Part shown: piece after piece, positions 7,569 to 47,940 of the stretch
Layout of the letters: each line of letters starts with the position of its first letter
How positions within the stretch are numbered: the first letter of the stretch is position 1
Assembly: GCF_017352195.1 (NCBI RefSeq)
Contig: NZ_CP071445.1
Span: forward strand, 2,294,001-2,358,000
From: Sedimentibacter sp. zth1
GTDB taxonomy: Bacteria > Bacillota > Clostridia > Tissierellales > Sedimentibacteraceae
DNA length: 64,000 nucleotides
Direction of reading: 5' to 3'
Position numbers and translations under genes: made by a program
The notes under the pieces: generated by a model
What the model was told of the DNA's origin: nothing
The model's database searches: none
Seen by the model: only the letters and a program-made list of their open reading frames with translations

Positions 7569-7778
7569 TTAAAGTTTGTTAAGCTCACCTTCTAATCTTA
7601 CTATTACTTCGCTTTTTTTCATTGGAGCAATATGTCCATGAACATATGTTTAAAAAGGTATTTTCTTAAGATATTGTATGAAATTGTTAAGCTTATCTCT
7701 ATCGTATTTTCCTTGGTTATTATAAAAGTCTTCTCCATCGGCATCACCCCTTATGTAGCCGAGGGTAGGTCGGTCAGT
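7569..7778 (-). pseudogene. Remnant of a metallo-beta-lactamase-fold hydrolase gene
   Basis: The minus frame reads TDRPTLGYIRGDADGEDFY, continues to a TAA at 7650-7652, then in the same frame gives TYVHGHIAPMKKSEVIVRLE and ends in a true stop at 7569. The first block matches the DRPxLGYIxGD opening of clostridial metallo-beta-lactamase-fold proteins. The second resembles the C-terminal end of such proteins (HGH followed by a KKSEV helix). The zinc-binding HxHxDH core between them is absent. I read this as an internal deletion plus an in-frame nonsense codon, leaving about 70 codons of a gene normally near 250. No ribosome binding site or start is visible. The assignment rests on two short blocks only. 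Confidence 0.6.
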
Positions 7779-7814
7779 TTATTTTTAGAATAACTGTACC
7801 TTATACAAAGTATA

Positions 7815-7843
7815 TTGATAATAAATAGAATATTCGCTATAAT
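7815..7843 (+). promoter_or_regulatory. Sigma-A type promoter of the yhfC-like gene
   Basis: TTGATA (7815-7820), 17-bp spacer, TATAAT (7838-7843). Transcription would start near 7850, about 55 bases before the ATG at 7905. With the remnant and terminator upstream, this accounts for the gene-free stretch 7536-7904. Confidence 0.7.
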
Positions 7844-7904
7844 TTAGTTATAACGGATGTCTGTAAGTATTATGTTACCAAAAATTTATTAGGAGGACTT
7901 AAAA

Positions 7905-8705
7905 ATGATATCAAATTCAGCATTATTAGCACTTGTGTTAGACCTAATTATTTGTTTTGTTATTCCAATAGCTGTGTTTATTGTAATTCAGCTTAAGTGT
8001 AAAAAAGCCTTCAAAGCATTTAGTTTTGGAGCATTAGCATTTTTTATATCTCAAATTGTTTTGAGAATACCTATAATAACAAGTTTATTGCCTTGTTTTG
8101 AATGGTATACAATTTTTCAAGATAAATATCCCTACTTGTATTGGATATTTTTAGGTCTGACAGCTGGCATATTTGAAGAAGTTGCAAGATTTATATTTAT
8201 AAAATATTTTATGAAAAAAAATCAAAGATATATAGATGGTATATCTTTTGGGTTAGGTCATGGAGCTATAGAAGCAATACTTATAACAGGCGTATCATTT
8301 GCAACAATTTTGGTATATTCAATAATGATAAATAATGGAACGTTTGTATCAAATACAGTTAGTATACCAAAAGCAACTGCTGATGCCATATATACGCAAT
8401 GTATCAATTTGACATTTACAAATGCAATATTGGGTGGAGTTGAAAGAATATTTTCTATGTGTATTCATATAGGGCTTACTATGATTGTGTTTATAGGTGT
8501 TAGAAATAATAAATCATTTATATATCTGATAATTGCTATTTTAGTACATGGTACAATAGACTCTTCTATAGGACTCATGTCACAAATGCTTGGATTTTCA
8601 ACAATAGCAATGGAGGCAGTTTTTGGTGCAATAGCTATTGTTTTGGTTATATACTCACTATGTATTAAAAAGCGAAACATATGGCAAGCTAATTGCGAAA
8701 TATAA
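7905..8705 (+). CDS. YhfC family intramembrane metalloprotease
   Basis: 266-residue membrane protein with about seven hydrophobic segments. It carries the YhfC/DUF2324 pattern: a glutamate pair in a helix (GIFEEVARFIFIKY), then FGLGHGAIEAIL and a late HGTIDSSIG, together forming E, H and H sites like those of CAAX-type (Abi) intramembrane proteases. The family is predicted to be proteolytic or scaffolding; substrates are unknown. The start ATG lies behind AGGAGGACTTAAAA. It is monocistronic, with its own promoter at 7815-7843 and a shared terminator downstream. Confidence 0.82.
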   Translation: MISNSALLALVLDLIICFVIPIAVFIVIQLKCKKAFKAFSFGALAFFISQIVLRIPIITSLLPCFEWYTIFQDKYPYLYWIFLGLTAGIFEEVARFIFIKYFMKKNQRYIDGISFGLGHGAIEAILITGVSFATILVYSIMINNGTFVSNTVSIPKATADAIYTQCINLTFTNAILGGVERIFSMCIHIGLTMIVFIGVRNNKSFIYLIIAILVHGTIDSSIGLMSQMLGFSTIAMEAVFGAIAIVLVIYSLCIKKRNIWQANCEI

Positions 8706-8752
8706 AAATAGAGTTAGTAGGGTTTTACCTAAAATAAAAAATGTGCTTAGTA

Positions 8753-8787
8753 AAAAAGGTGAAAATTAAAATAATTTTCACCTTTTT
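8753..8787. terminator. Bidirectional terminator between yhfC-like gene and M29 aminopeptidase
   Basis: Perfect 16-bp stem (8753-8768 with 8772-8787) with an A-rich left arm and T-rich right arm, so it can end transcripts from both converging genes. Confidence 0.85.
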
Positions 8788-8818
8788 CAATAATTTTTAA
8801 TAGAAAATTCAATTAATA

Positions 8819-10051
8819 TTATATTGCCCAGTTACCTTTTTCAAAAATAACTGTTTTATTGCCGTTTTCTTCAATACCAGTAACCTTTAAATCCTTAGTG
8901 CCAACCATAAAGTCTACATGATTCATTGAATCATTGCCACCAATTTTTTTTAGGTCTTCCTTAGATAATAGTTCTCCGCCTTTTATTGTGTTTGGATAAC
9001 ATTTGCCAAAAGCAAAGTGACATGATGCATTTTCATCAAATAAAGTATTATAGAATAAAATACCCATATTTGAAATAGCAGAGTCATAAGGAACTAAAGC
9101 AACTTCACCAAGTCTTCTTGAGCCTTCGTCTGTATTTAGAAGTCTTTCCAAAGCTTCGTAACCTTCTTTAGCATCAAAATCAACAACTTTACCATCTTTA
9201 AATGTAACACTAAAGTTATTGATAAGTGTTCCTTGATAACTTAAAGGCATTGAGCTAACAACTTTACCATCAGCATATCTGCAATCTGGTGCTGTAAACA
9301 CTTCTTCAGTTGGCATATTAGGAAAAAATCTAATACCTTTTGTATTAGATTCTCCACCACCTGCCCAAATGTGGTTTTTAGGCATTCCAACAACAAAGTC
9401 AGTTCCTAAAGAGTTTTCATAATGTAGTTTTGCAAATTGTTTCTCGTTTAATATATTACATTTAGAAACTAAATTTGCATCATGCTTTTTCCAAGCTTCA
9501 ACAGGATTTTCTTTTCCTATATGAACGGTTTTAAAAATAGCTTCCCATAATTTTTCTATAGCTTCCTTTTCGTCTAAGTCAGGGAATATTTTTTTAGCCC
9601 ATGCAACGTTTGGAACAGCAAATAAATTCCATTGAAGTTCACTTTTATCAAAACAATCTCTATAATCCTTAAGTGCTATTTCAGACGCTTTTACATTTGC
9701 TAGCAATTTTTCAGATGAAACTCCTTTAAATATTTCAGGGTCCTCTGCTAATACATTCATAAATGCTGCATTTTGTTTTGCGTAATCATTATAAAATGAA
9801 GCTTTCCAGTTAGGAACGTTTTCAAAAACTTCAAGTGGGGCATAGTCAAATTTTAATCGTCCTAATTTTTCATCCTTCCAACTAACAACAACTTCCTTTG
9901 CGCCTGCTTCATAAGCACATTTTGTTATCATTCTTGCAAATTCTGCATACTCAACTGGACATTGTAAAACAAGTATTTGATCTTTTTGAATATTAACACC
10001 AGTTTTAACTGCCAATTCAGCATATTCCATTAGTTTTTCATTTAAATTCAT
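8819..10051 (-). CDS. M29 family aminopeptidase (AmpS/PepS type)
   Basis: 410-residue cytosolic metallo-aminopeptidase matching AmpS/PepS/aminopeptidase T in length and motifs: EVFTAPDCRYADG and GESNTKG blocks in the middle, a CHFAFGKCYPNTIKGG block, and NHVDFMVGT near the end. In the known M29 structures a Glu/Glu/His/Tyr/His/Asp set binds two metal ions; the H and D of HVDFM are two of them. It removes N-terminal residues from peptides, in line with amino-acid fermentation. The start ATG 10051 follows GAGAGGATAAAAAT. It is single, on the opposite strand to its neighbours. A second, shorter M29-like gene lies at 28927-29913. Confidence 0.93.
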   Translation of the reverse strand: MNLNEKLMEYAELAVKTGVNIQKDQILVLQCPVEYAEFARMITKCAYEAGAKEVVVSWKDEKLGRLKFDYAPLEVFENVPNWKASFYNDYAKQNAAFMNVLAEDPEIFKGVSSEKLLANVKASEIALKDYRDCFDKSELQWNLFAVPNVAWAKKIFPDLDEKEAIEKLWEAIFKTVHIGKENPVEAWKKHDANLVSKCNILNEKQFAKLHYENSLGTDFVVGMPKNHIWAGGGESNTKGIRFFPNMPTEEVFTAPDCRYADGKVVSSMPLSYQGTLINNFSVTFKDGKVVDFDAKEGYEALERLLNTDEGSRRLGEVALVPYDSAISNMGILFYNTLFDENASCHFAFGKCYPNTIKGGELLSKEDLKKIGGNDSMNHVDFMVGTKDLKVTGIEENGNKTVIFEKGNWAI

Positions 10052-39951: not shown

Positions 39952-41567
39952 CAGATTGTAGACAAACGCAACTTAGATTATTGCTAAGTTGCGTTTGTTG
40001 TAATTAAATTTATGTATTTCTATAAAATTGAAGATTTCTTTAAAAATACATGTTTTTAAAGGAACAATAAGCCCCATTCTTTTTTTGATTTTTGCTAATT
40101 TTTTTAGATTCATGCATGCAAAAGTAAGCCCAATTTTCTTTTTCATTTGAGCTATTCCAACTTCCGTAGTATATCTTAACCCATGATTTTCTTTTGCAGT
40201 TCCAAAAATTCTTTCGATAGTTTCTTTTCTTAAATCATAGATTTGCTTATTTCCTCTAGTATGTCTAATATCTTCGCATTTTTCAATATATTTCTGCCAA
40301 ATATGTCTGGTAACTACCTTTACGTTGTTTTTACTTGCTGTACATTGTTTTAAGAATGGACATTTGCAGCATATTTTTGCATTACTTTTGTATTCACGAT
40401 AACCATCTCTAGTTGTTGTACAATATTTTAAAATCTGATTATTAGGACATACATAACAATTATAGTATTCATCATATGCATATTCATATTTTTTGAAAAA
40501 TTCTGGTTTGGTCATGGGTCTTTTATATGGAAGTAATGCCTGGATTCCTTCATCCATGATAAGTTTTGCAATTTGTGGTGTTTTATATCCTGCATCTGCT
40601 ACAATCATCTTAGGATTTAATTCTATCAATTTATTAAAAAGTGCAGGGAAAGTTCTGCTGTCATGTAAATTACCAGGATGTACTGTATATCTTAAAATCC
40701 ATCCGTTTTTATCACAAGCTGTTTCTGAACAGTATGCAAATACTTCTTTATGCTCACCTTTATGGAACAGTCCACTTTCTGGATCTGTTGTACTTTCAGT
40801 TATTGTTTTAGTATTTTTATCTTCTGATGCTGAATCATTCCGTTACTGTTATCATCATCATTTTTATCTTCAAACGGCTTTTTACCATGTATTTCTCTGT
40901 CCTTGTTTATTTCTTCTTTTAGTTGCTTTTCGTAAAACATAGTTTCTTTTTTTACATTCTTTTTTATGTTTTTCTTTTTATTTGCAGCTGCTTTAATATG
41001 AGTGGCATCAACGAATATCGTATCTGTGTCTACTAAATTTAATGTTATGATTTCCTCAAGTATCTTATTGAAAATTTGTTCGAATAAATCAGTATCTTTA
41101 AACCTTCTTGTATAATTTTTACCAAACGTTGTGAAATGAGGAACTGGATCAGTTAATCCTAATCCCAAAAACCAGCGATAGGCAACATTTACTTGTATTT
41201 CTTTTACTGTTTGTCTCATGCTTTTTATTCCAAACAAATACTGAATCATAGGTATTTTTATTAGCATCACAGGATCTAAACTCGGTCTTCCAGTATTTTG
41301 TGAATATCTTTCTTTTACCAAATCATAGATAAAACTAAAATCTATTGCATTTTCAATATCTCTAAGGATATGATCTTGCGGAACTAATTCATCAATTGTT
41401 GTCATAACTAGTTGATTTTTTTCATCATTTGTTTTTTTATGCAACATAACTTTTACCACCTTTATTTTCTACTTATATTATACCATAAAAATGCTAAAAT
41501 GTCTTGATTTTTCAATATTTAAACGTGAAAAAAGTCGGTGATTTTCACCGACTTTGTCTTCACTCTG
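39952..41567 (-). mobile_element. IS1182-family insertion sequence (1,616 bp)
   Basis: The ends are imperfect inverted repeats: left CAGATTGTAGACAAA (39952-39966) and right, reverse complement, CAGAGTGAAGACAAA (41567-41553), 13 of 15 matching. A hairpin lies just inside each end: 39963-39997 (14-bp arms) and 41531-41555 (11-bp arms), which would block outside transcription. A 28-bp identical direct repeat flanks the element. It contains one frameshifted transposase gene. The family is assigned from the transposase. Confidence 0.92.
39973..41447 (-). pseudogene. IS1182-family transposase, frameshifted
   Basis: Two minus frames make one transposase of about 490 residues. The N-terminal part (41447 to about 40840) has TGRPSLDPVMLIKIPMIQYL and the first catalytic Asp in FVDATHIKAAANK. 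The C-terminal part (about 40840-39973, offset by one base) has VADAGYKTP with the second Asp and KETIERIFGTAKENHGLRYT with the Glu, plus a zinc-like CCKCPFLKQC. The shift lies in the Asn/Asp/Ser-rich segment near 40840; past it the first frame ends at 40800. No slippery A or T run is there, so this looks like decay. The start ATG 41447 follows AAAGGTGGTAAAAGTT. Confidence 0.85.
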
Positions 41568-41597: not shown

Positions 41598-42545
41598 TTA
41601 CAAATTGTCTAATTCAATAATTTTAGGGAATTTATTTCTAGCAGTATTTTCCATATCAACTGCAAACTGAGGGAAACCAGCATTTTTATAAAGATGTTTA
41701 GCACATCTATATTCAACCAGTGCTTCATTGTATCTTTCTAATCTATAAAGAGTTAAATATTTCATTTCAAATAATTCAGGTAGTAATCTAGTCATGTTAT
41801 TTTTAAATGAAAAATCAATCCCTTTATTTATATAAGAAAAAGCGGTATTGTAGTCATTTTTATAATAATATAACTTGCCTAATTGAAACAATGTAGCTTG
41901 ATATAATTTGTTTGTGTAAGTCATTGAATTATAACTTTGATAAGATTCAGAAAAATAGAATTTATCTATTGTATCTAAAATATATAATAATATGTTTATA
42001 CATTTTATTTCTTCGTTAAGCTCTCTATAACAACAACTTATAAGATTTAACATTGAATAACCTAAATTTGAATATATATTTTGTTTTGTGTTTTGTATCT
42101 TAAAGGATGGAGTTTCTGCTTGTATACCTTGCTGGCATAATTCAATTACCATATCATAGCGTTTGTTTGTATGAAATTCATATGCAGCTTTTGCATAATA
42201 TAGTAGTGCTAAATTTTGACCGCTTCTAAATAAAGAATGTTTTTCAACTATTTTTATTAGAGAATATAGTTTTTCGAAATTAAGTGCACCAATACAATTT
42301 ATTATCTGGTCTGAATATTCTATTGCTTCAATAATATTATTGTTATATATTTTTTTATAATATTCATTTAAGTCTATGTTTAATTTAGAGGATAGTCTAT
42401 GTAGTACATATATAGATGGTTCACTATCATTATGTTCAATTCTTATTAATTGCTTAACCGAACAAATTCCTTCAGATAATTCTTTCTGAGTTAAGTTATA
42501 TTTTTTTCTTAATTGTTTTAAAATGCTTCCAAAATTTGATTCCAT
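41598..42545 (-). CDS. RRNPP-type (PlcR/Rgg-like) HTH-TPR transcriptional regulator
   Basis: 315 residues. The N-terminal XRE helix-turn-helix (about 5-62, LKQLRKKYNLTQKELSEGICSV...) is followed by about 250 residues of TPR-like helices (for example LFQLGKLYYYKNDYNTAFSYINKG). This architecture is that of PlcR, PrgX and Rgg regulators, which bind small imported peptides. The divergent gene 122 bp away encodes a secreted 50-residue peptide, a fitting pheromone. Both flank a RiPP operon, so I infer quorum control of that operon. ATG 42545 lies behind GGGGGGAAATATT; an in-frame TTG at 42575 is rejected. The architecture is firm; the ligand is inferred. Confidence 0.85.
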   Translation of the reverse strand: MESNFGSILKQLRKKYNLTQKELSEGICSVKQLIRIEHNDSEPSIYVLHRLSSKLNIDLNEYYKKIYNNNIIEAIEYSDQIINCIGALNFEKLYSLIKIVEKHSLFRSGQNLALLYYAKAAYEFHTNKRYDMVIELCQQGIQAETPSFKIQNTKQNIYSNLGYSMLNLISCCYRELNEEIKCINILLYILDTIDKFYFSESYQSYNSMTYTNKLYQATLFQLGKLYYYKNDYNTAFSYINKGIDFSFKNNMTRLLPELFEMKYLTLYRLERYNEALVEYRCAKHLYKNAGFPQFAVDMENTARNKFPKIIELDNL

Positions 42546-42572
42546 AATATTTCCCCCCAGATTTAGTTTTGT

Positions 42573-42620
42573 CAAGAGACATATGTGTCCCTTGAATTTA
42601 ATATGACATTATTTTACAAT
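42573..42620 (+). promoter_or_regulatory. Promoter and palindromic operator of the peptide/RiPP operon
   Basis: TTGAAT (42592-42597), a 17-bp spacer and TACAAT (42615-42620) form a sigma-A promoter reading into the pheromone gene. A 22-bp palindrome, CAAGRGACA-N4-TGTCYCTTG in outline (42573-42594, 18 of 22 symmetric), touches the -35 box, where an activator would contact polymerase. It lies between the regulator and the pheromone gene. Confidence 0.65.
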
Positions 42621-42666: not shown

Positions 42667-42819
42667 ATGAAAAAAAGATTTAGATGTTATTTATTATTAT
42701 TACTACTTGTAACTATAGTGTTAACATCTAATACATATGAAAACATTAATGGAGATGGTTCATCTGAAAGGGGAGAACTAATTGTAAGTAACTATGCTGA
42801 AAATATAATGTATGTATAG
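42667..42819 (+). CDS. Secreted pheromone-like peptide (candidate ligand of the HTH-TPR regulator)
   Basis: 50 residues: basic start MKKRFR, a hydrophobic core of leucines and valines (residues 8-20), then a short polar tail ending SNYAENIMYV. AGAGGGTGATAGAGAC precedes the ATG. Size, signal-like N-terminus and position match PapR/SHP-type peptides, whose C-terminal 5-10 residues are cut out and re-imported. It is the first gene after the operator/promoter at 42573-42620 and lies 57 bp before the RiPP precursor. I do not recognise a homologue, so function is inferred from context; it could instead be a second RiPP-like peptide. Confidence 0.65.
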   Translation: MKKRFRCYLLLLLLVTIVLTSNTYENINGDGSSERGELIVSNYAENIMYV

Positions 42820-42876
42820 AATTTAATTTTTGAAATTTGTTTAGTTAAACAATAAAAATAAAGGGAGGTGAAAAAA

Positions 42877-42978
42877 ATGATAGATAAAATTACTAAAATG
42901 ATAAAAGGTGTAGTAACTACATATGATACATGAAATTGTGGATCACAAAGATGTGCGGAGTCACATGTAACTTATTAA
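42877..42978 (+). CDS. Candidate RiPP precursor with in-frame TGA at codon 19 (possible selenocysteine)
   Basis: GGGAGGTGAAAAAA is an excellent ribosome binding site for ATG 42877. The frame reads 18 residues (MIDKITKMIKGVVTTYDT), then TGA at 42931-42933, then NCGSQRCAESHVTY and TAA. Read through, it makes 33 residues with a helical leader-like start and a core bearing two Cys. Read literally, it stops at 18 residues with no core. A hairpin ATGTG-CGGAGT-CACAT at 42951-42966 has its loop G about 23 nt after the TGA, within the loose spacing of bacterial SECIS elements. Alternatives are Trp decoding, a nonsense mutation or a sequencing error. The radical SAM maturase follows, 90 bp downstream. 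Confidence 0.6.
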
Positions 42979-42987
42979 TGTAAAAAT

Positions 42988-43023
42988 ATTTGAAGCAAGA
43001 TATTATAATATCTTGCTTCAAAT
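42988..43023 (+). terminator. Strong hairpin between precursor and maturase genes
   Basis: 17-bp perfect inverted repeat (42988-43004 with 43007-43023). No T run follows, so it is more likely a partial terminator or mRNA-stabilising element that favours precursor over maturase expression. Confidence 0.65.
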
Positions 43024-43068
43024 AATATTTATAATTAAAAAAAATACTAAATACAGGAGATACATATT

Positions 43069-44370
43069 ATGGAAAAGTACAAAGGAGCTTATGTAGTTGA
43101 TAAGGAAGATTATTACTTTTTAATTAATCCCTATTTACAAACAACTTCCGAAATAAAAAAAATTGATAATGACTTTAGAAAAAGTATAGAACCTTATGAA
43201 AAAGATTTAATAGATTCATATATTTTATTTAATGATGATAATTATAATTATAATCGTATATCTAATTATTTTGTAAACAAAGAAAAATATAATTTTAATT
43301 CAGTTACATTTACAGAAGCAATGTCATTTGATTGTAATCTTAACTGTATTTATTGTATGCAACAAAACACATGTAAAAGTAGAAATAAAATTACTCCTGA
43401 TGAAAGGGTTACTTTGTGGCAAAAAATTAAGAACCTTTTCAATGCAAATGATATAAAAATTTGTTTGTTTGGTGGAGAACCTTTTTATGATTTAAACTAT
43501 GTAGAAGAGTTATTTAACATAGCTGAAAAGAGAAATATAAATATTTCATCAATAATTGCAGTAACAAATGGAACTATATGTAATGAACAAGTATGTAATA
43601 TTATTAATAAATTTCATATTAGTACTCTACAAATTACATTAGATGGATTAAAAGAAGTTCAAGATTCAAGAAGAGTACTAACGAATGGGAGTTCATATGA
43701 TTTAATTACTAATAATATTGATAGCTTTCTAAAATATACTAAAGCATCAATAATTATTAATACAGTCTTAGATAAGCAAAACAAAAATGATTACATACCA
43801 ATGGTAAGAGAGATAATAAATAGATATAATGACTATGTATTCGGAGATAAACCTAGAGTAATATTTAACTTAGGTACAGAGTGCCATCCAGTAAATAGGT
43901 GTCAATATACTAATGAAAATGCTAGTTATAACGTACAGTTTATGGATACTTATTATGAAAATTTATTTAAACTTATAGACCTAGGTGTTGCTATTAATTC
44001 TATTTTCCCAGGACCTATATGTATAGGAAACAAAAGCAATGATATTGTTACAGGACCAGATGGTAATATATATTCTTGTATATCAGCAATTGGTTTAGAT
44101 GATTTTAAAATTTGTGATTATGAAGATGTTTTAAATAATCCAGCTAAGTTTTTATTTCAGTCTATAAAATTTAGCGAAAGCAATAAAAGTGCAGAATGCT
44201 TTGAGTGTGAATACTCTCCATGGTGTAATGGAGGTTGTAGTTATAATAAATTTGTTGAAGGCAAAAAAAGTAGTTGTCAAAAACTTATTTTTAAAGAAGT
44301 AATAGAAAAAATAGTAAATATATCTTCTATGGTTCAAGAAATATATCCAAATATTTATAGGAAAAAATAA
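43069..44370 (+). CDS. Radical SAM/SPASM peptide maturase
   Basis: 433 residues. The N-terminal part (about 1-80) probably binds the leader. The radical SAM core has the CxxxCxxC cluster motif with Cys89, Cys93 and Cys96, followed by LFGGEPFYD and TLDGLKEVQDSRR. The C-terminal SPASM region is Cys-rich: GPICIG, YSCISAIG, then AECFECEYSPWCNGGCSYNKF and a final SSCQK, fitting auxiliary iron-sulfur clusters. Such enzymes make thioether or C-C cross-links in RiPP precursors, here presumably the peptide at 42877. ATACAGGAGATACATATT precedes the start. It overlaps the next ABC gene by one base. The reaction type is not decidable. Confidence 0.92.
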   Translation: MEKYKGAYVVDKEDYYFLINPYLQTTSEIKKIDNDFRKSIEPYEKDLIDSYILFNDDNYNYNRISNYFVNKEKYNFNSVTFTEAMSFDCNLNCIYCMQQNTCKSRNKITPDERVTLWQKIKNLFNANDIKICLFGGEPFYDLNYVEELFNIAEKRNINISSIIAVTNGTICNEQVCNIINKFHISTLQITLDGLKEVQDSRRVLTNGSSYDLITNNIDSFLKYTKASIIINTVLDKQNKNDYIPMVREIINRYNDYVFGDKPRVIFNLGTECHPVNRCQYTNENASYNVQFMDTYYENLFKLIDLGVAINSIFPGPICIGNKSNDIVTGPDGNIYSCISAIGLDDFKICDYEDVLNNPAKFLFQSIKFSESNKSAECFECEYSPWCNGGCSYNKFVEGKKSSCQKLIFKEVIEKIVNISSMVQEIYPNIYRKK

Positions 44371-46169
44371 TGAGAAATATAAAATTAAGATTAAAAGAAA
44401 TAGTAAGTATACTAAATTTAGTTTGTAAAAATGCACCATTTCAATTTTTATTCAAGCTATTTGTAGTAATTATAATAGCAATTCTTAGACCACTAAATGT
44501 ATACTTTTTTCAAAATGTAATAGATAATATTGTGCAGTCAGAAGCAGGTGCAACATTAAATAGTGAAGTATTATTATGGTTATGCTTATTTTGCATTTCC
44601 ACTTTGATAGTTATAAATGTTAACTTTATAAATAATATACAAAACATTTCATTGAAAAAAAAATTTAATATTAAGTTTCTAAATTCTATGTTGTACAAAT
44701 ATAAAAAAATTGATTACTCGTGTTTTGAAAATACAGAAGTACATAATATTATTACTCGTATGGGGGATAATTTAGACAAAACAATCATTGAACTATTTTT
44801 AAGAATTATAGATATTACTTCTATAATGGTTTCAATTATAGGCTATATTATTATATTTTTACAAGTTTCTGTTTGGTTTGCAATAATATTTTTTGTGGTA
44901 TTATTTATAGTTTTCATTTTAGAATTTAAAGCCATGAATAAAATGAATACTATGTTATATAATCAAACTGAAGATGAAAGAAAGTTAAATTATTTACAAC
45001 ATATACTATCTGATAAACATTCATTACTTGAGTTGAAAATATTTTGTTCAATATCATATATTCTAAACATGTGGAACAAAAAAGCTAAGGAAATTCTTAA
45101 TGTTAGAGTAAAAACAACAATTAGTTCTCAAAAATATTTTGCATTGAATTGTTTATGCACAATTATTTGGATTAGTATAATGCTTATAGTATTAATTAAC
45201 TATTATGAAAAAGACTATATAACACTAGGGTTATTTATTTCTCTTATAGGTAGTGCAAGTACATTATTAAGTATTATAGAATCGCTATCTTATTATATAT
45301 CTGATTTATCGCAAAATTTATTATGTATAGATTATTATAATAAATTTATAAATTTACCTGAGGATCATAAATATAACGAAAAAGAATATGATTTTGAAAA
45401 ACCAGAAATTGTTTTTAAAAATGTATCTTTTACATATCCTGGAACCACACAAAAAATTTTAGATAATATATCTTTTAGTATTAATTATAATGAAAAAGTT
45501 GCGCTTGTAGGCAAAAATGGTTCAGGAAAAACTACAATAATCAAGCTTCTTTGTAAACTATACAAACCTGATAGTGGGGAAATATTAGTAGGCGGTATTA
45601 ATATTAATAATATAGATAGAAATTCTTTAGCTAAGATATATAGTGTTGTTTTTCAGGACTATGCTAACTATGCATTAACCCTTAGAGAAAATATTGCTGT
45701 TGGAGATATAAAAAAACTTAATAATGATGATTCAATAATAAAATCACTAACTTTTGGTTTAAAAAATATGAATATATCACTTGATCAAAATCTTGGCAAA
45801 ATAGATGAAAATGGTATGGATTTATCAAAAGGTCAGTGGCAACAAGTTGCAATAGCAAGAGCGCGTATAGTAGAAAATAATTTTATAGTTCTTGATGAAC
45901 CTACAGCCTCTCTAGATCCTATAGCTGAATGTGAACTATACAATTCATTTCTAGAAGTATTAAATGACAGAGGTTGTATAATAATATCACATAGATTAGC
46001 AAGTGCAAAATTATGCGATAAGATAATAGTAATACATGGTGGACAAATTGTAGAAGTAGGAACTCATACTGAGTTATTAAAACATAAAAATATATATTGT
46101 AATATGTTTAAAACACAAAGTGAATGGTATAGCAAAGGTGAAAAATATGAAAAAAATAAAAACTGTTAA
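44370..46169 (+). CDS. ABC exporter half-transporter 1 of the RiPP locus
   Basis: 599 residues: an N-terminal six-helix exporter domain (about 20-320) and an ATPase domain (about 345-585) with Walker A VGKNGSGKTTI, signature LSKGQWQQVAIARA and Walker B FIVLDEPTASLDP. There is no C39 peptidase domain, so leader cleavage must be done by another protein. The signature LSKGQ departs slightly from LSGGQ. TAATG couples it to the radical SAM gene. It probably pairs with the next protein to export the modified peptide or to give self-immunity. Confidence 0.9.
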   Translation: MRNIKLRLKEIVSILNLVCKNAPFQFLFKLFVVIIIAILRPLNVYFFQNVIDNIVQSEAGATLNSEVLLWLCLFCISTLIVINVNFINNIQNISLKKKFNIKFLNSMLYKYKKIDYSCFENTEVHNIITRMGDNLDKTIIELFLRIIDITSIMVSIIGYIIIFLQVSVWFAIIFFVVLFIVFILEFKAMNKMNTMLYNQTEDERKLNYLQHILSDKHSLLELKIFCSISYILNMWNKKAKEILNVRVKTTISSQKYFALNCLCTIIWISIMLIVLINYYEKDYITLGLFISLIGSASTLLSIIESLSYYISDLSQNLLCIDYYNKFINLPEDHKYNEKEYDFEKPEIVFKNVSFTYPGTTQKILDNISFSINYNEKVALVGKNGSGKTTIIKLLCKLYKPDSGEILVGGININNIDRNSLAKIYSVVFQDYANYALTLRENIAVGDIKKLNNDDSIIKSLTFGLKNMNISLDQNLGKIDENGMDLSKGQWQQVAIARARIVENNFIVLDEPTASLDPIAECELYNSFLEVLNDRGCIIISHRLASAKLCDKIIVIHGGQIVEVGTHTELLKHKNIYCNMFKTQSEWYSKGEKYEKNKNC

Positions 46170-47940
46170 TACGTTTAAAATTATGTTGAAGGCAATTAAG
46201 CAAATTTTTAATATAGTGCCAATTGCTGCATCTTTAACATCTATCATTAATATTTGCATCTCTTTTTTTCCCGCAATTACTGCAAAATTATTAATTACTT
46301 TATTTGATAGTGCTGATAAGACTAATATTTCATATGATATAAATAAGTTGTTACAATGTGCATTTATATTTATCCTATGTTATGCTATTAAATATTTCAT
46401 GGAATTTATTACTAGTATTACTGTTAATGCTTTTATTTTTGAAAAATGTGTAATGTACAGTAGAGTCAAATTAGCTGAAAAATCATCAAAATTGGAAGTT
46501 ATTCAATATGAAGATGACAATATTCTAAATATGAAAAAAAGGGCACAAAATTGCATTGATAATGAACTTTTAAGCATGGTGTTTTTTAAAATAAGTAATA
46601 TAATAAAAAATAGTATTAGTTTAATTTCAGTTGTCATAATATTGGTTAGTTATAGTAAGTTTTTTTTACTAGTTAGTTTATTAAGTGTATTACCATATTT
46701 TATATCTAAATTGATTAGAGGTAATTATTTTTATAAACTTAGAACTAAGCAAGCTAAAGATGAAAGAAAATTAAGTTATCTATATAAATTATTTTCAGAT
46801 AAACAAACTGTTAAAGAAATGAGAGTTATGAATTTTGAAAATTATATTATTGAAAAATGGGAAAATTGTTTTAAGGATATATATGAGAGCCAATGGAAAG
46901 AAGAAAAGAAAGATGCTATATCATTACTAATCTGTGATGTGATTAGGTCATTGGGATATATTGCTTCAATAATAGTATCTATATTGTTAATGTTAAAAGG
47001 TGAAATATCTATAGGTGTACTTGGTGCATGTATATCAAGTTTTCTTTCGGTTCAAGATGCAACATGCAATTTTCTAATAAACATAGCCTCATTACCAAAT
47101 TTAGCACTTTATGCAAATGACTATTACAAATATTTAGATTTACCAGAAGATATAGATGGTATTAAGGAAGTCGTTTCAATAAAAAATGGTATATCTATAA
47201 AAAATATAAAGTTTAAGTATAAAATGAATAATAATTTTAATATAAATAATATAAATTTAGAAATAAAAAAAGGTGAAAAAGTTATAGTGTTGGGTGAAAA
47301 CGGAAGTGGCAAAACAACTTTAATTAAATTAATTCTTGGAATTTATAAAGTTGATGATGGAGAAATACTATATGATAATATAAATGTTAATAATTGTAAA
47401 AAAAGTTGTTTATACAATTTGATTTCAATAGTATCTCAAAATTTTATAAAATACAATTTGAAATTAAGAGAAAATATAGCAATTTCTGATACTTCTATGA
47501 TTGATGACAACAATAAGATAATTAGTTCATTAAAAGCAGTAGACTTAAATAAATTAGATAATTGCGATGAAATGTTAGGTCGAGAGTTTAATGGAATTGA
47601 ACTTTCCGGCGGAGAGTGGCAAAAAATAGCAATAGCAAGAGGCGTATTTAAAAAAAGCGAAATTATTTTCTTGGATGAACCTACAAGTGCTATAGATCCA
47701 TTAGCTGAAAAGGAAATACTGTTTAAATTTTTAGATATTGTGAAAAACAAAACTTCTATTATTGTAGCTCATAGAGTTGGATTGTGTAAACATGCAGATA
47801 AAATAGTAGTAATGAAAAATGGAGCAATAGTAGAGGTTGGAACTCACAATGAATTAATCAATAAATGTGGAGAGTACACTAGACTTTATAATTCACAGGC
47901 AAAATGGTATGTAGAAAAGGAATCAAATAAAAGCATATAA
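46147..47940 (+). CDS. ABC exporter half-transporter 2 of the RiPP locus
   Basis: 597 residues, with the same layout as its neighbour: six membrane helices, then an ATPase with GENGSGKTTL, LSGGEWQKIAIARG and IIFLDEPTSAIDP. The two differ throughout, fitting a heterodimer. ATG 46147 has AAAGGTGAAAAAT upstream and overlaps the previous gene by 23 bp, so translation is coupled. No peptidase domain is present. This is the last gene of the RiPP operon; the next gene converges with no clear terminator between. Confidence 0.9.
   Translation: MKKIKTVNTFKIMLKAIKQIFNIVPIAASLTSIINICISFFPAITAKLLITLFDSADKTNISYDINKLLQCAFIFILCYAIKYFMEFITSITVNAFIFEKCVMYSRVKLAEKSSKLEVIQYEDDNILNMKKRAQNCIDNELLSMVFFKISNIIKNSISLISVVIILVSYSKFFLLVSLLSVLPYFISKLIRGNYFYKLRTKQAKDERKLSYLYKLFSDKQTVKEMRVMNFENYIIEKWENCFKDIYESQWKEEKKDAISLLICDVIRSLGYIASIIVSILLMLKGEISIGVLGACISSFLSVQDATCNFLINIASLPNLALYANDYYKYLDLPEDIDGIKEVVSIKNGISIKNIKFKYKMNNNFNINNINLEIKKGEKVIVLGENGSGKTTLIKLILGIYKVDDGEILYDNINVNNCKKSCLYNLISIVSQNFIKYNLKLRENIAISDTSMIDDNNKIISSLKAVDLNKLDNCDEMLGREFNGIELSGGEWQKIAIARGVFKKSEIIFLDEPTSAIDPLAEKEILFKFLDIVKNKTSIIVAHRVGLCKHADKIVVMKNGAIVEVGTHNELINKCGEYTRLYNSQAKWYVEKESNKSI

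Follow-up and report, generated by a model that had tools for sequence, protein, structure and literature searches.

A probable selenocysteine codon in the precursor of an unnamed radical SAM peptide family from Sedimentibacter sp. zth1

Introduction

What is the meaning of a TGA codon that interrupts, in frame, what otherwise looks like the precursor gene of a RiPP, placed next to the gene for a radical SAM enzyme? The question is raised by a 64,000-nucleotide stretch of DNA from Sedimentibacter sp. zth1 (contig NZ_CP071445.1, positions 2,294,001 to 2,358,000 of the forward strand), which we call the window and to whose first letter all unprefixed coordinates below refer. A preliminary description had suggested that the codon might specify selenocysteine (Sec), leaving nonsense mutation, Trp decoding, and sequencing error as alternatives. 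We think it probable, at roughly 0.86, that the gene encodes a precursor belonging to a small and as yet unnamed family of radical SAM RiPPs, that its UGA is decoded as Sec by SelA, SelB, SelC, and SelD with a hairpin, and that the peptide is modified and exported. The case for Sec is made by comparison: it rests on homology across the TGA, on Cys in all the relatives found, and on a complete set of genes for the Sec machinery. Actual insertion of Sec, modification, the site of cleavage, export, and the function of the peptide are inferred.

Results

The precursor gene (42877..42978, forward strand) was identified by direct reading and through homologous peptides, and it consists of 18 codons, a UGA probably read as Sec, 14 more codons, and a TAA, or MIDKITKMIKGVVTTYDT-TGA-NCGSQRCAESHVTY-TAA. 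Our reading confirmed the 34-codon frame with one in-frame TGA reported earlier (42931..42933, forward strand), the proposed Sec codon 19, which aligns with a Cys invariant in relatives, and it also confirmed the ribosome binding site GGGAGGTG (42863..42870, forward strand) 5′ of the precursor ATG. The adjacent radical SAM gene is present as described; an intact radical SAM/SPASM maturase is followed downstream by two ABC exporter genes.

The maturase (43069..44370, forward strand; 433 aa, open throughout) was recognized by profile, sequence, and fold comparison. It exceeds the cut-offs for PF04055 (52.8 bits versus 29.5) and for the SPASM model TIGR04085 (43.5 versus 27) and retains the conserved Cys residues; a CX3CX2C radical SAM motif and a SPASM domain beside a short precursor satisfy the criterion for a radical SAM/SPASM RiPP system. 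Because the AlphaFold model of the protein is only moderate (mean pLDDT 66.6, 6 sequences), its fold matches can do no more than confirm that the maturase is of the radical SAM/SPASM kind. Between precursor and maturase lies a 17-pair inverted repeat resembling a terminator or attenuator (42987..43024, forward strand), and the one match to Rfam, which was sub-threshold, fell on this repeat. The first exporter gene (44370..46169, forward strand) encodes a membrane part and an ATPase, with no match to a peptidase domain; it overlaps the gene for the second subunit (46120..47940, forward strand), which was assigned by profile match. Both clostridial relatives (L016 and L017) have the exporter pair 3′ of the maturase in the same gene order, and the Thermotogota loci appear by eye to carry an ABC ATPase and two permease-like proteins instead.

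On the 5′ side there is a divergent helix-turn-helix regulator (41598..42575, reverse strand; HTH_3 over its cut-off, weak TPR matches below theirs), whose control of the cluster we infer from its position, and a small ORF of 50 aa whose N-terminus is signal-like (42667..42819, forward strand; no family over cut-off), which we infer to be a possible signalling peptide. Small ORFs precede the precursors of relatives as well: a 47-aa signal-like peptide at L012:5369-5512 and the octapeptides MYIDSYID and MYIDSYTD at L013:1281-1307 and L014:1285-1311, respectively. An imperfect 24-bp palindrome, TCAAGAGACATATGTGTCCCTTGA (42572-42595; 20/24 by eye), lies where the divergent regulator begins and may be an operator. 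A transposase in two pieces (DDE_Tnp_1_6 and DUF772), in separate frames on the reverse strand at 39973-41459, adjoins the cluster. Elsewhere in the genome, several frames matching a radical SAM model stand close together in rows at G000:C1:2519651-2522441 and 2700537-2706716, and one of them contains two internal TAA codons.

By way of related maturases we came upon a precursor family, present in 2 clostridia and 11 Thermotogota genomes, whose members share the motif Cys-x-[Cys/Asn]-Arg-Ser-Gln-Arg-Cys. A precursor of this SQRC family was found upstream of every related maturase, at 14 loci in 13 genomes with 7 distinct peptides (L012 and L073 are the same genome in this count, and the maturase of L083 is broken). 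The preliminary description had staked the Sec interpretation on codon 19 of such homologues and on conservation beyond it. In all 13 other genomes with the peptide the column of the window's TGA is Cys, never Trp, a stop, or unrelated sequence; no second TGA-bearing relative was found (0/13 genomes), and the codons 3′ of the TGA are conserved across the homologous peptides. The core reads YDT-TGA-NCGSQRC-AESHVTY in the window, YGG-C-TCRSQRC-AN in L013, YSG-C-TCRSQRC-TS in L014, and PLGG-C-TNRSQRC or PLGG-C-INRSQRC, with short tails, in Thermotogota. With C written for U in the alignment, the invariant columns of the precursor peptides are K7, position 19, S23, Q24, R25, and C26. L013, the nearest relative, shares 6 of the 8 residues after the TGA with the window although the two maturases are only 48% identical. 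Selection must therefore have maintained the tail of the window's precursor at least into the very recent past. As aligned, the TGA column is a Cys/Sec pair across the family, and such pairing is described as an accepted, SECIS-independent criterion in the portion of the source available to us (PMC13188914).

The precursor matched no family in NCBIfam or Pfam, and we found no publication on the SQRC family or its Sec form in the open PMC literature, which leaves out most subscription papers. A peptide-profile search of the class gave matches in 9 of 391 genomes. Three are strong (the window, G103, and G099), with TGA in the window only. Seven weak matches in six genomes (L094-L100; E values between 0.001 and 0.01; TGA in one) were judged to be chance because the flanks examined contained no CX3CX2C frame longer than 150 aa. 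G103 and G099 encode SelB over the cut-off, yet both keep Cys at the TGA column; the Thermotogae metagenome-assembled genome (MAG) has no SelB over the cut-off. Two side observations concern neighboring loci. Just 5′ of the SQRC cluster of G103, a methyltransferase frame runs through an in-frame TGA (L016:9529-10224; 232 aa with the TGA as Sec) and resembles arsenite methyltransferase selenoproteins, while scoring below every curated NCBIfam cut-off listed. In a Thermotogota locus, largely identical proteins of 474 and 476 aa lie on both sides of the SQRC cluster (L085:1465-2889 and 7622-9052).

The maturase itself is thinly distributed. Relatives were found in two other genomes of the order (L013 and L014; 48% identity) and in the Thermotogae MAG (L012; 34% in the best segment). 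Yields, with the window's own genome counted each time, were 3/249 genomes of the order, 3/391 of the class, 1/398 of the phylum, and 2/27 of the family, L011 being one of the two (28%); the class and phylum sets are samples. Within the MAG's phylum, 11 of 103 genomes, the MAG included, have a relative. When the maturase was used as a single protein, the contig scan returned one relative, L012, and viral contigs returned none; an alignment query of viral contigs gave 41 loci at 21-34% best-segment identity. Among plasmids there were 48 records, all below 60% identity, the 20 listed reaching at most 28.8%. The in-frame TGA of three Thermotogota maturases proved to be their ordinary end. Another genome from the window's family, G001, carries a different Cys-rich 47-aa peptide, seen by eye and bearing another motif (L011:2742-2885), 3′ of its distant maturase (28%). 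The maturase tree places the window's protein with L013 and L014 (98/99), and the root is unsure, given a long outgroup branch. Since all seven other family members have Cys, Sec would most simply be a replacement on the window's branch.

The genome, a single 3.13-Mb contig, meets the criterion of a complete Sec machinery (selD-selA-selB-selC). The four genes whose presence the preliminary description had made a check are clustered at one locus (G000:C1, about 1.213-1.219 Mb): selC is a tRNA-Sec with anticodon UCA, SelB scores 401.6 bits versus a cut-off of 242.25, SelA 615.7 versus 267.9, and SelD, itself the product of a UGA gene, 396.4 versus 125 when the UGA is taken as Sec. Read through their UGAs, grdA (275.3 versus 130), prdB (432.1 versus 300), and prdC (635.8 versus 490) all pass their curated cut-offs, and two grdB-type genes exceed the PF07355 cut-off with UGA at the usual place. 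The genome thus has six UGA genes of known families (selD, grdA, prdB, prdC, and the two of grdB type) besides the window's precursor. Its glycine- and proline-reductase genes fit the earlier guess of an amino-acid fermenter, and, to judge from its sel and UGA genes, the host cell should be able to make selenocysteine.

The stem-loop noted earlier 3′ of the TGA is also present (42951..42966, forward strand), with a 5-bp stem, ATGTG/CACAT, and a loop, CGGAGT, that begins 22 nt past the UGA; the loop has G at position 2, contains GG, and could form a C-G pair flanking GGA. In the part of the source that could be consulted, the published bSECIS model calls for a loop of 3-9 nt, an upper stem of 4-16 bp, a G among the first two loop bases, a spacing of 16-37 nt, and an energy of -7.5 or below (PMC13188914). 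Of these, the window's hairpin meets the loop, stem, and spacing rules but not the energy limit, reaching -3.8 by itself and -6.0 as a 45-nt fold. Measured under the same constraints, four of the genome's six known UGA genes likewise fall short of the -7.5 limit (-8.9 for selD, -8.4 for prdC, -6.6 and -5.9 for the two grdB genes, -3.0 for prdB, and -0.8 for grdA). The loop and spacing rule, as we coded it, is satisfied by the window, by 5 of the 6 known UGA genes (prdB fails), and by none of 11 Cys loci, which are drawn from the 14 and represent all 7 distinct peptides, L073, L076, and L082 being omitted as copies. We give this result moderate weight because the rule was coded after the hairpin had been seen. 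Among the window's 2274 TGA triplets, 237 satisfy it with a stem of at least 4 bp and 88 (3.9%) with one of at least 5 bp.

In stability the hairpin is unexceptional: of 200 shuffled versions, 98 equal or better its fold (z = 0.12), it is matched by 10.4% of random synonymous recodings that follow the window's codon usage and by 31.9% with uniform codons, and 6.8% of the 2274 TGA triplets do as well on energy. Loose SECIS energy tests were rejected as a means of separating Sec from Cys genes, for 3 of the 7 distinct Cys relatives (L013, L014, and the L074 type) have hairpins that are equally stable or more so. By itself, the hairpin is weak evidence. Because shuffles, recodings, and Cys relatives match it on energy, we rely instead on the Cys/Sec alignment.

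Discussion

The explanation that competes most seriously with Sec is a recent nonsense mutation or base-calling error at codon 19 of a normal Cys precursor, which would make the gene a pseudogene or, if the error is in the base call, leave it really intact. A single base separates Cys codons from TGA, every relative found has Cys, the TGA occurs in one genome only, and the hairpin's stability is nothing out of the ordinary; an event of either kind would give the same sequence. Yet of the 18 single-base changes that would create a stop in a Cys version of the precursor, only 1 falls at codon 19, and the hairpin conforms to the loop rule for SECIS elements, for which the background rate is 3.9%; these odds taken together make a chance nonsense change unlikely. 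The tail, ribosome binding site, maturase, and exporters are intact, moreover, and six other genes of known selenoprotein families in this genome run through UGA. We regard mutation or error as a minor possibility that a single genome cannot exclude.

The remaining alternatives fare much worse. Decoding of UGA as Trp, or leaky read-through, might be entertained given that UGA is rare as a stop, ending only 2 of the window's 44 frames of at least 200 aa, but it does terminate those two, a tRNA-Sec(UCA) is present, and Trp decoding in particular is disfavored because every relative found has Cys and never Trp; we consider it very improbable. Some signalling peptides are about as short as 18 residues, and the 18 codons before the UGA would give a product resembling them if the UGA were a real stop and the tail a product of chance. 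This we find harder still to credit, given a tail that bears the SQRC motif, invariant in the family. The comparative tests proposed at the outset favored Sec, and we retain that interpretation of the TGA.

If Sec is indeed inserted, we envisage that the UGA is decoded by SelA, SelB, SelC, and SelD, aided by the hairpin just 3′, and that the neighboring radical SAM/SPASM maturase next modifies the complete peptide of 33 residues. The selenium of Sec19, the sulfur of a Cys, or both would probably be linked to the carbon of a nearby residue. By inference, the leader would be trimmed near residue 18, at the Gly-Gly that precedes position 19 (Asp-Thr in the window), and the core exported by the two ABC subunits. 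A more specific proposal, which we advance tentatively and hold to be somewhat short of an even chance, is that a Se-C cross-link from ribosomal Sec yields a selenium macrocyclic peptide of a non-SbtM family, that its production requires available selenium and perhaps responds to peptide quorum sensing, and that its sulfur counterparts occur in related clostridia and Thermotogota.

The window's precursor is probably a further case of Sec in a radical SAM RiPP precursor, its maturase belonging to a different family from the one already known. It also brings to light a so far unnamed family of SQRC precursors that clostridia and Thermotogota have in common. The exchange of Cys for Sec sits in the substrate peptide, not in an enzyme active site, and the existence of natural Cys twins, with a 48% identical maturase and the same core motif, would allow the role of selenium in this chemistry to be addressed directly. 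Peptides of this sort can escape gene callers that treat every UGA as a stop.

Among characterized maturases, several resemble that of the window without claiming it. Its best NCBIfam match is CefB, the Cys-every-fifth maturase (NF038107), at 121.2 bits over most of its length, against a curated cut-off of 600. The closest solved sequence is 5wgg (81.7 bits), and 5why is the first Foldseek match of our moderate model; both are structures of CteB, a thioether-forming SCIFF maturase. The SCIFF model TIGR03974 is nevertheless absent from the best 25 of the window's 48 matches and gives 71.1 versus 425 in the relative L085. PapB, likewise a thioether-forming maturase, forms a selenoether with SeCys peptides, according to the part of the report accessible to us (PMC10470005), but the window's maturase scores 77.5 bits against a cut-off of 340 for the PapB model (NF047865). 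The layout of regulator, small peptide, and radical SAM RiPP operon recalls the RaS-RiPP clusters of streptococci, which Rgg/SHP quorum sensing controls, insofar as the available text describes them (PMC13361665). Host and genes differ, and the regulatory link in the window is inferred from layout only.

The nearest precedent is the SbtM system of Geobacter, whose precursor is named SbtA. In these clusters for thio(seleno)oxazole RiPPs, as in the window, a radical SAM/SPASM maturase lies beside a TGA-bearing precursor; the sections of the paper we could consult state that SbtM acts on both Cys and SeCys peptides and that a Sec insertion element directly follows the precursor's TGA (PMC11002830). 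The preliminary description expected a radical SAM substrate containing Sec to be a novel kind of natural product; with SbtM on record, that expectation is not supported. What sets the window apart is its maturase, which is not among the 11 matches listed for the genome (E up to 1) to TIGR04082, rSAM_for_selen, which we take to be the maturase family of SbtM; no match over the cut-off of 350 for this model occurred in the 4 genomes searched. Judged by this model alone, the window's precursor and maturase probably represent another family of Sec-bearing radical SAM RiPPs, apparently unrelated to that of SbtM.
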